Below, piece after piece: positions 21,954 to 36,737 of a stretch of 45,313 nucleotides of DNA. The notes under the pieces were generated by a model. That model saw nothing but the letters and a program-made list of their open reading frames with translations, was not told where the DNA came from and did no database searches. Every line of letters starts with the position of its first letter. Positions within the stretch are counted from its first letter, which is position 1. The DNA comes from Candidatus Mediterraneibacter tabaqchaliae (GTDB taxonomy: Bacteria; Bacillota; Clostridia; Lachnospirales; Lachnospiraceae). The translations under genes and the position numbers were made by a program. The stretch is from NCBI GenBank assembly GCA_019120595.1, contig DWUV01000057.1:1-45313 (forward strand), given 5' to 3'.

Positions 21954-22865
21954 TTATCCCGCTGTATCATAGGTCCTCACCATCATTATCCGGCTCCCCT
22001 TTGCCGAAAAATGCGACGGATATACAGTCGTTGTCCCATTCCCCTCCAGCTCCTCGATCTTCGCCGTGTACGTAATGCCTCCCAAATACTCATCTTCCTG
22101 GACGAATTTATAAAAGATCCGAATACACGGGATATCCCGGTCTGTCAGATTCGTCACAGTTACGCCGTTATCCTCTCCCACTATAATCCCCAGCTCCGCA
22201 GACATCATATCAAACTCGTCGATATACGCGGTCTGGCTCCCCCGGTACAAAACGGCGCCGGACTCATAAGGAGTCCGCGAGCTCTCCAGTACGGAAATAC
22301 CCGAACCCGCAGGAAGATCTGATATCTCAAAATTCAACTGCTTCCCACCTACTTCCAGATTGATACTGCTATACTCTACATTCTCCCCCTGGTTCTGCAC
22401 ATGGATGGCAAAGATATCCTCCACATCCTCATCGCTTCCGTCTTCAATGTATACTCCTGAATAACTGTCCACCCGGTCGATCACAAGCTGGGTCCCCGGG
22501 ACTGTATACGGCAGGCTCATCTCCTCCCGTATATCGGGGTCAAAGCCAATCGCAGAGTTCTCTCCGGAGCCTGTACCGGAAGAGCCTGCGTTCCCGCCGT
22601 CTTTAGCCTCTTCCCCGCTCTTTGCGCCGTCATCCCCGGCAGAGTCCTGGGCCTCTCTCTTCTCCCCCGCCCGGTCTGTATCCGCCGTCTGACGGTCTCG
22701 CCCGCTATTCTCTTTTCCATGCCCGCCTTCCAGTGCCCACCATACAGCAGCACCGGCCAGAAGAGCTGCCGCGCATACCAGGATCAGCACTTTCCCGTTC
22801 CGGGACAAAGGCGTCTTTTTCTTTCCGCTTTCCCTTCTAGACCTGTTTTTTTCTTTTCTGTTCAT
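21954..22865 (-). CDS. Single-TM extracellular protein of unknown function
   Basis: MNRKEKNRSRRESGKKKTPLSRNGKVLILVCAAALLAGAAVWWAL, low-complexity linker, extracellular domain; ATG at 22865 overlaps the radical-SAM stop codon (ATGA). Confidence 0.75.
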   Translation of the reverse strand: MNRKEKNRSRRESGKKKTPLSRNGKVLILVCAAALLAGAAVWWALEGGHGKENSGRDRQTADTDRAGEKREAQDSAGDDGAKSGEEAKDGGNAGSSGTGSGENSAIGFDPDIREEMSLPYTVPGTQLVIDRVDSYSGVYIEDGSDEDVEDIFAIHVQNQGENVEYSSINLEVGGKQLNFEISDLPAGSGISVLESSRTPYESGAVLYRGSQTAYIDEFDMMSAELGIIVGEDNGVTVTNLTDRDIPCIRIFYKFVQEDEYLGGITYTAKIEELEGNGTTTVYPSHFSAKGSRIMMVRTYDTAG

Positions 22866-24007
22866 GCTTTCTGCCCTTCCTTTTCTTTTTTCTGCACGCT
22901 CCGGCACGCGTCCAGGTAGCATTTTGTCATCCGGCACCGATATTCCGGCACTTCGGTAAAAGTATCCGTCTCCGTCAGCACCATGGCCGCGCACGCCTGG
23001 CATTGCTTTCTCAATGAGCAACCGCTGCACTCAGCCGGCAGCCTGATCCCGCCGACAATATCCGTAAGTTCTTTCCATGCATCCTCAAATCCATCCCGAA
23101 ACGGATACGTCACAGGCCGCGTCATCATCCCGCAGGGAAGCATACGGCCGTCCCATGTCATCCAGAAGGCGCACCTCCCCGCAGCGCATCGGATAATGTC
23201 CCCTTCGGATACGAGACACCCGTCAGGAGACTCGTCCATCGCTGCTCCGCCTTCTTCCAGCTGCTTAAGGTACATCGAAAACTTCTCATCCCCATTCTGC
23301 AGCCTGACGACCTCCGCCGCCGCGAGAGCCGCATCTTCCGGCGTAAATCTGTTATTTTGTCCCGCCATATGCGTATCCCTTCGGAGCGGCGGGAACATAT
23401 AGGTACTCGCCTGCAGCATCAGCCCGCTCTCCTTTGCAAACCTGATCATCTGAGGGAGTTCTTCTATATTATAAGGCGTTACGCTGCAGTTCAGCTTGAC
23501 CATGATCCCTGCTTCCCGGAGCATACCAAGAGCAGTGGTCATCTGAGTATATCCTTTTGGATTGTGGCAGAGCCGCCCGTATGTCTCATCGGACGCGCCG
23601 TAAAGTGTAATATTCATCCTTCCCGGCGGATTTACGGCAAGCCATTTTACGGTATCCGCGTCGATCATAGTCGCATTGGTATTGATACTGATGACAAATC
23701 CCATAGACGCAAGCTGCTCATACAGCTCCCTGAACCCGGGATAAAGGAAAGGCTCCCCTCCCGTCAGCAGCAGGAACAGCATCCCTGCTTTTTTCGCTGT
23801 TTCCGCAATGTCCAGCCATTCCTCCACTGTCCGCAGGCGGCCTCCGCTTTTTTCCATATCGCTTTTCGTCATACGCACATAACACATTTCACAGCTCATA
23901 TTGCACATCGGTGTCAGCTCAAATGTCCCGCTGACAGGCGTATGCGAAACCGCGCTTCTGCTATACAGATACTTTACGATCCTCGGTTCAACTAATTCCG
24001 GTATCAT
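22862..24007 (-). CDS. Radical SAM/SPASM peptide maturase (cassette 1)
   Basis: ELTPMCNMSCEMCYVRMTKSDMEKSGG (CxxxCxxC), LLTGGEPFLYPGF, CAFWMTWDGRMLPCGMM, CSGCSLRKQCQACAAM (SPASM). Confidence 0.92.
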   Translation of the reverse strand: MIPELVEPRIVKYLYSRSAVSHTPVSGTFELTPMCNMSCEMCYVRMTKSDMEKSGGRLRTVEEWLDIAETAKKAGMLFLLLTGGEPFLYPGFRELYEQLASMGFVISINTNATMIDADTVKWLAVNPPGRMNITLYGASDETYGRLCHNPKGYTQMTTALGMLREAGIMVKLNCSVTPYNIEELPQMIRFAKESGLMLQASTYMFPPLRRDTHMAGQNNRFTPEDAALAAAEVVRLQNGDEKFSMYLKQLEEGGAAMDESPDGCLVSEGDIIRCAAGRCAFWMTWDGRMLPCGMMTRPVTYPFRDGFEDAWKELTDIVGGIRLPAECSGCSLRKQCQACAAMVLTETDTFTEVPEYRCRMTKCYLDACRSVQKKEKEGQKA

Positions 24008-36000: not shown

Positions 36001-36737
36001 TTATAGACGAAAGGCACCTTCACGTTTTCATAAACGTCTGTATACTCATCATTGCTTCCGTCTGTGGCAAAGAGCGGCGCCGCATTCACCGCGTCACTGA
36101 AAGGAACGTTAGCGCTCTCGCCAAGCTTATCCGCCGCAAGGCCGGAATAGATATAATAATTCTGCTTTGGTTTATTGTATTCATCTCTGTCATCCACCCA
36201 GTTGCTGAAATTCGGGGAATTCTGTTTATTTTCCCCTGCGGTGAAGTAGAAGCCCTTGCCTTCATAGCCGCCCTGGCGCTGCTCGTAGAGGGTAATCTGG
36301 GTATATTCGTTGGTCGTATGACCGATCTCCCTGTAGGAATTTCCGTCATGGTAATAGAGGGTGTAGGTTGTTACATAGTCAAACCATTCCCAGCTTCCCG
36401 TCCGGGTATAATATACCTTATAGTACTCGTTCCCCACTTTGTGCCAGTAATTACTTTCTCTGTAACTGCTTGTTTCCCGTGTGGCCACCTGACTATAGCT
36501 GACAGTTGTACTATGATAGGTATTTCCCTCAGCTCTGTCGGCCTCTGCCGTAGCCGCATTCGCTCCGTTTTCATCCCAGTTGTACAGGGTGCTGTCAAAG
36601 TACTCTACCTGCAGTTCCTTATTGCCCGGTTTTGTCGTCACGGGCTCCGCCGCGAAGACCATGTCGGGCGTCAGTGTCGCTGCCATTCCAAACGTAAGTA
36701 TTCCCGCGAGGATACGTTTGGATATTTTGTTTTTCAT
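33039..36737 (-). CDS. Large secreted protein with fibro-slime-type and SpaA-like domains
   Basis: Signal peptide; [63 protein letters not shown]...[13 protein letters not shown]. Confidence 0.85.
   Translation of the reverse strand: [1232 protein letters not shown]

Follow-up and report, generated by a model that had tools for sequence, protein, structure and literature searches.

The minus strand of a 45 kb contig (DWUV01000057.1, 45,313 nucleotides, called the window below) from the draft genome of Candidatus Mediterraneibacter tabaqchaliae, a member of the Lachnospiraceae (2.7 Mb in 236 contigs), carries the same four-gene order twice: a giant secreted protein (S), a short peptide with a YxKP motif (pep), an HprK-like kinase (K), and a radical S-adenosylmethionine (SAM)/SPASM enzyme (R). 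We think it probable that these cassettes encode a variant of phosphorylated ribosomally synthesized and post-translationally modified peptide (RiPP) that acts jointly with a surface protein dedicated to it. Each cassette would consist of a RiPP precursor, two dedicated enzymes (K and R), and a dedicated S protein; how the peptide is modified and what the surface protein does are inferred. It is then predicted that radical SAM chemistry and HprK-type phosphorylation, the latter at a defined C-terminal Ser, fall on one and the same substrate. The conserved protein partner suggests a testable role for phosphorylated peptides, in which peptide and surface protein act together; this would be a new means by which bacteria build or decorate their surface.

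All eight open reading frames (ORFs) of the cassettes were found where the original prediction had placed them, and the gene order that it described recurs in many genera. Cassette 1 comprises S1 (33039-36737; 1232 aa), pep1 (32773-33024; 83 aa), K1 (31807-32700), and R1 (30672-31823), followed by a terminator-like hairpin of 20 pairs (30580-30626). Cassette 2 comprises S2 (25252-28215; 987 aa), pep2 (24957-25232; 91 aa), K2 (24008-24859), and R2 (22862-24007). All of these features are on the minus strand. For pep1, the ATG at 33024, which has a Shine-Dalgarno sequence, is a more likely start than 33033. S1 is separated from pep1 by 14 nt, and K1 and R1 overlap; in cassette 2, 19 nt separate S2 from pep2, K2 and R2 abut (0 nt), and 4 nt are common to R2 and the gene after it. 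This spacing fits two transcription units.

As originally proposed, all four members are paralogous between the copies. The kinases are 39-40% identical, the radical SAM enzymes 40%, S1 and S2 28% over a 393-column C-terminal module (E 3e-27), and pep1 and pep2 26%, with the leader in common. Local duplication was rejected as the origin of the two cassettes. Because each copy groups with cassettes of other genera in both the kinase and the radical SAM trees, the phylogeny indicates that they are old, separate lineages. Cassette 1 groups with locus L032 and the second cassette of L084 (kinase support 100/100, radical SAM 99), and cassette 2, less firmly, with L075/L093; its radical SAM grouping is not starred. 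Locus L084 (Erysipelotrichaceae) has both cassette types, adjacent to each other. One congeneric genome (G174, contigs C3 and C13) encodes four kinases and two genes with the S module, showing that cassettes can multiply within a genome.

Addressing the question of whether the gene order is conserved, which the original prediction had raised, we found that the four genes are a conserved unit across families. A kinase search identified relatives in 39 of 150 genera of the family and, among 58 species of the same genus, in 26. Lachnospiraceae, Oscillospiraceae, Erysipelotrichaceae, Peptostreptococcaceae (Intestinibacter), and Clostridium celatum all have loci with the S-pep-K-R order, and peptides are found in others too. 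A set of 120 related loci, made up of 40 stretches from genomes of the kinase search and 80 named loci from a species collection, contains 65 further YxKP-type peptides beside a kinase. At a threshold of 100 bits, 108 kinases were retained; 89 of them have a radical SAM gene on the same strand within 3 kb, and 66 have a YxxP-type peptide. A reverse search with a peptide profile gave 15 matches in 150 genomes of the family, 13 of them close to a kinase, and 18 matches in the 58 congeners, 17 of them within 2.2 kb of a kinase; as the profile was partly built from the searched genomes, this result is informative through the near absence of matches elsewhere. The outcome named in advance as refuting the prediction, that homologs of the short ORFs never stand beside a kinase or radical SAM gene, was tested for and did not occur.

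Exopolysaccharide (EPS) islands collect many modifying enzymes, and the four genes could in principle be unrelated neighbors clustered by chance in such an island. We regard this as extremely improbable; it is contradicted by the order kept across families, by the agreement of the kinase and radical SAM trees on cassette 1 (with full support) and less firmly on cassette 2, and by the almost constant proximity of peptide matches to a kinase. The unit is widespread rather than peculiar to this locus. Gut Clostridia commonly carry it, among them the named species Mediterraneibacter catenae, Fusibacillus kribbianus, Intestinibacter bartlettii, and Clostridium celatum, which opens it to study.

The short ORFs look like RiPP precursors. 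The two peptides had been predicted to have the same leader motif, and YxxP is indeed present in all 35 aligned precursors, in which the Y, the P, and two Cys are invariant. Conservation is at least 90% for E, I, and A, for another two Cys and a Tyr, and for the Ser at the C-terminus, giving the consensus MKKxYxKPxxxxExFxLSQxIAxxC...C...C...CYxxPxG..xxFxS. Four Cys are usual. The leader of pep1 reads MKAGYEKPMIEFDEYEL..IAAGC and the peptide ends in Ser; that of pep2 reads MKKQYQKPIVVVESFAL..VAACG, with four Cys in common with relatives and a C-terminal end ..CYNTPDGTNSVFAS. No curated family matched either peptide of the window. An exact C-terminal Ser is present in 60 of 67 curated peptides, including both from the window, and all 67 have Ser within the last three residues. 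After removal of near-duplicates the count is 54 of 61, versus 6.0% in long ORFs of the same DNA (binomial p 3e-58). The search that found the peptides set no condition on Ser. Ten of 77 candidate ORFs, none of which ends in Ser, were judged spurious by eye and removed before the count, which would otherwise be 60 of 77.

Other peptide types were also observed. The C-terminus is not Ser in nine YxxP peptides encoded in the vicinity of more distant kinases (L054, L060-L063, L065, and L069). A second YxKP group (L060 at 9205 and 13119, L062 at 8591 and 12109, and L063 at 12160) has a leader ending in EGVYAASG and C-termini that are not Ser, and is encoded beside distant HprK-like kinases, an exporter, and a protease, with no radical SAM match. 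A longer type (L041 at 7816, L045 at 7880, L049 at 11751, L146 at 832, and L147 at 5211) lies beside a kinase and a radical SAM gene; its leader ends near ANEYVAACGDSG and its C-terminus is W(E/S)T(A/T)KS, and no adjoining giant surface protein was found.

The P-loop and radical SAM motifs named in the original prediction are present in both copies: APSQTGKTTQARLW and APSGTGKSTQADLW in the two kinases, and CNFSCRMCYVRKT and CNMSCEMCYVRMT in the two radical SAM proteins. The predicted HPr kinase-like identity is supported by an AlphaFold2 model of K2 (mean pLDDT 95), for which the best Foldseek matches in the PDB are HprK/P and PEPCK (1kkl, E 1e-6); the model thus supports an HprK fold. Of the catalytic set, the kinase family conserves His, the P-loop Lys, and the second Asp. 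In 14 aligned radical SAM homologs, including R1 and R2, the CxxxCxxC motif and seven SPASM Cys are invariant. The closest solved sequence is SkfB (6efn, E 2e-24), and neither R1 nor R2 reaches the cut-off of any curated family. The peptide had been predicted to be radical SAM modified and either phosphorylated or nucleotidylated. Putative modification by both enzymes, with phosphorylation favored, is the reading that fits best.

Of the giant proteins, S1 has a signal peptide-like start, a fibro-slime domain, DUF7601, and a weak C-terminal cadherin-like match, and S2 has a VWA domain. They have in common a C-terminal module of ~350 residues, encoded at 33420-34553 in S1 and 25501-26574 in S2 (both minus strand). 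The giant proteins otherwise vary (~800 to 2960 residues, with differing heads), and the module is found in 37 of the 38 giant ORFs directly upstream of a YxKP peptide, the exception being L033. Within the source genome it is strong in S1 and S2 only. Twelve of the 58 congeners have the module, all within the 13 peptide-bearing genomes (p 1.5e-11), and in the 150 genomes of the family all 6 that have the module are peptide-bearing (p 2e-9). It is mostly a few hundred bases from the peptide gene. At L093 an S1-like head is joined to a module, peptide, and kinase of the cassette 2 type, and over 35 cassettes the partial rank correlation of module with peptide given head is 0.63, versus 0.20 for head with peptide given module. 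Co-occurrence thus gives strong support to the earlier proposal that the peptide is tied to a dedicated surface protein.

RiPPs with SPASM enzymes are often antimicrobial, and the peptide may be an independent secreted product, either bacteriocin-like or a signal, with the giant protein only co-resident in a surface-polysaccharide island. The patchy distribution of the kinase among the congeners would suit such a product, as would the placement of the Linear Polyphosphorylated Peptide (LPP) and paeninodin clusters in capsule loci for which no surface protein has been described (PMC13381572). We nonetheless consider it unlikely, given that the module is nearly constant in upstream giant proteins, is restricted to peptide-bearing genomes, lies close to the peptide gene, and tracks peptide type even when the head is swapped.

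The pairing of peptide type with module type could also mean that the peptide is matured to a cofactor-like or crosslinking group and becomes covalently part of the S protein rather than remaining free. The Cys-rich core, the SPASM enzyme, and a C-terminal phosphate would be reactive handles for this. A conserved Cys in S was considered as the attachment site and rejected, the S proteins having from 1 to 32 Cys in no common pattern. We know of no precedent for such a conjugate, and judge it quite improbable.

The AlphaFold2 model of the S2 module (pLDDT 81) consists of nearly all beta strands arranged as a tandem beta-sandwich. Foldseek matches include tandem CBM51 and malectin-like proteins at low TM-scores (about 0.25), tentatively suggesting that the module binds carbohydrates or glycans. 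Neither LPXTG nor another known sorting signal was seen at the C-terminus of S1 or S2. Many S proteins, namely S2 (25252-25300) and those at L034, L046, L048, L074-L090, and L109-L111, have an acidic linker and then an amphipathic aromatic/basic tail at their end (e.g., SIFSSLLSSIRNWFNKRR and AWFNNLINGIKNLFGRW). Possibly these tails are an unrecognised surface-retention signal. As S1 and about a third of the other S proteins lack the tail, it was kept out of the definition of the unit.

The remaining machinery is encoded in the window outside the region covered by the original prediction. Two PqqD-type RiPP recognition elements (RREs), with Pfam PqqD matches of 3e-15 and 5e-12, are encoded upstream of S1: P1 (37546-37845, minus strand) is a discrete RRE, and P2 (36809-37240, minus strand) has an N-terminal leader-like extension. 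This YxKP stretch (MKKGYKKPVVAYTD...) gives P2 the appearance of a leader fused to its reader. A similar RRE extension (TFSQP) occurs at L146, and a free peptide at L120 (8381-8569; MKKSYRKPLVYCENHDTG..SNSEEY) resembles the P2 extension. Further down the strand that encodes the cassettes are a LuxR/MalT-type regulator, a nucleotidyltransferase-like protein of family NTP_transf_5 (PF14907, E 2.5e-47; 14384-15637), an MsbA-like ATP-binding cassette (ABC) exporter with ABC_membrane and ABC_tran domains (12578-14368), an S24/signal-peptidase-like protease that is a candidate leader peptidase (12006-12521), and then EPS genes. The nucleotidyltransferase and exporter, 7-9 kb downstream of cassette 2, are probably common to both cassettes.

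We propose the following sequence of events, in which the two cassettes, with two RREs, would share one nucleotidyltransferase, one exporter, and one signal-peptidase-like protease. A PqqD-type RRE would bind the YxxP leader, as suggested by the motif and by published work on RRE-leader recognition. The SPASM radical SAM enzyme would then act on the Cys-rich core, where thioether or other Cys-linked crosslinks are the most likely product. The HprK-like kinase would phosphorylate the C-terminal Ser, a site suggested by its conservation and by the precedent of PadeK, ThcoK, and PsmK. The NTP_transf_5 protein may place a sugar or nucleotide on the phosphate, as the precedent of PsmN suggests. Export and trimming of the peptide would fall to the MsbA-like exporter and the S24/SipW-like protease, with the cut near IAxxC/G, where the leader ends. 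Finally, the mature peptide would act with S at the cell surface, via the tandem beta-sandwich module, in a matrix that includes EPS from the adjoining operon. This last step, suggested by co-occurrence and co-variation, is the weakest. A more specific form of it, which we offer tentatively and think rather unlikely, is that the RiPP is a prosthetic or coupling group: the C-terminal phospho-Ser of the crosslinked peptide, possibly extended by the nucleotidyltransferase, would link or dock the S module to EPS or the cell surface. If true, this would be a previously unknown way of surface anchoring.

The closest described system is that of the LPPs (lpp cluster of Paenibacillus alginolyticus; Popov et al. 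2026, Nat Commun, PMC13381572). LPP clusters lie in capsule loci of Bacilli and comprise an RRE, an HprK-like kinase, an NTP transferase, an MsbA-like exporter, a SipW-like leader peptidase (archaeal-type SpI), and a YxxP leader (PMC13381572). The window has a discrete PqqD-type RRE, an HprK-like kinase, an NTP transferase, an MsbA-like exporter, a candidate signal-peptidase-like leader peptidase, a YxxP leader, and a capsule/EPS setting, and as in LPP no lasso cyclase was seen among the ORFs read. The window unit differs in its additional members, a radical SAM/SPASM enzyme and a seemingly obligate giant secreted protein, neither of which is mentioned in the text of the LPP paper (PMC13381572), and in a core with about four conserved Cys and a conserved C-terminal Ser. 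The LPP leader consensus is YxxPxVLxHQxIxFETxxS, whereas the window family reads xxxxExFxLSQxIAxxC after YxxP; because of this difference we do not assign the window system to LPP. LPP was mapped in Bacilli, whereas the window unit occurs in Clostridia and Erysipelotrichaceae. The biological roles of LPP and of paeninodin-type phosphorylated peptides are both stated to be unknown, the capsule-locus setting of these peptides being the sole hint (PMC13381572).

Paeninodin-type lasso peptide systems (PadeK, ThcoK, SyanK, and PsmK/PsmN) also have an HprK-like kinase, a conserved C-terminal Ser in the precursor, an NTP-transferase-type partner, an RRE, and a YxxP or WxxP leader. Their kinases phosphorylate the C-terminal Ser, to which PsmN adds hexoses (PMC9266682). 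The window differs in its radical SAM enzyme, its longer Cys-rich precursors, and the replacement of the first kinase Asp. No lasso macrolactam cyclase (the asparagine-synthetase-like C protein) or B2 protease was noticed among the window ORFs read, part of which were covered by the Pfam scan. SynChlorMet systems (NCBIfam ScmC, ScmD, and ScmE/ScmF) likewise combine HprK-like, PqqD-like, and radical SAM/SPASM proteins, and K, P, and R show weak profile similarity to them; membership was rejected, as no score comes near its curated cut-off (18.5 of 125 bits for ScmC and 67 of 400 for ScmF). Sactipeptide and ranthipeptide systems (SkfB, AlbA, and CteB class) pair a SPASM radical SAM enzyme with a Cys-rich precursor, but the window enzymes fall outside the curated families, and we know of no HprK-like kinase or dedicated surface protein in those systems. 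In the literature searched, the coverage of which is incomplete, we found no description of an HprK-type kinase and a radical SAM enzyme in one RiPP system, or of a radical SAM enzyme, Cys-rich core, C-terminal Ser, and co-varying surface protein together. The original prediction likewise knew of no such exact pairing with an adhesin and a radical SAM enzyme; the general machinery, lacking these two members, was published in 2026 as LPP.

Several observations weigh against a phosphorylated RiPP acting with its own surface protein. The main reason to doubt kinase activity, judging from the alignment, is the loss of the first Asp of the His-Lys-Asp-Asp set, which is Gly in 64 of 85 sequences and Asn in K1. 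This catalytic set has been reported for lasso peptide kinases (PMC9266682, PMC10368454). With the ADDR motif of HprK/P changed to NGDR, the P-loop protein might instead nucleotidylate the peptide, move phosphate elsewhere, or be an inactive scaffold. We find this improbable, since the family is strongly conserved and retains His, P-loop Lys, and the second Asp, and since the conserved C-terminal Ser is the site used by PadeK, ThcoK, and PsmK (PMC9266682). The LPP kinase phosphorylates core Ser3, where phosphorylation is multiple, and not the C-terminus (PMC13381572). Nineteen of the 108 kinases have no radical SAM gene within 3 kb, and at some loci it is farther off. In 55 long relative loci, a radical SAM gene is near the kinase in 51 and PqqD in 44, whereas the exporter is near in 23, the NTP transferase in 17, and the protease in 13; given this sparseness, the latter three may have their genes at other sites or work for more than one system. 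The S24-like protease itself is just below the Pfam cut-off (Peptidase_S24, 22.7 versus 23.3 bits), with homologs recurring near kinases. Of all parts of S, the module is the one whose coding sequence lies closest to the peptide gene, and linkage alone could explain part of their co-variation; given the low TM-scores, a glycan-binding role is tentative. We still favor the phosphorylated RiPP with its own surface protein.

Cassette 2 continues into an EPS operon. Close downstream on the same strand are a probable membrane protein, an Ig-like protein, and two Wzz/tyrosine-kinase-type EPS proteins (18049-20991, minus strand). The first of these (21954-22865, minus strand), probably a membrane-anchored extracytoplasmic protein without a Pfam family, is a recurrent partner, with a homolog in 26 of the 55 long relative loci. 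On the 3' side of cassette 1, beyond the hairpin, the plus strand between the cassettes (28633-30547) encodes a Phd/YefM-ParE toxin-antitoxin pair and a tyrosine recombinase, which may mark a site of insertion or recombination.

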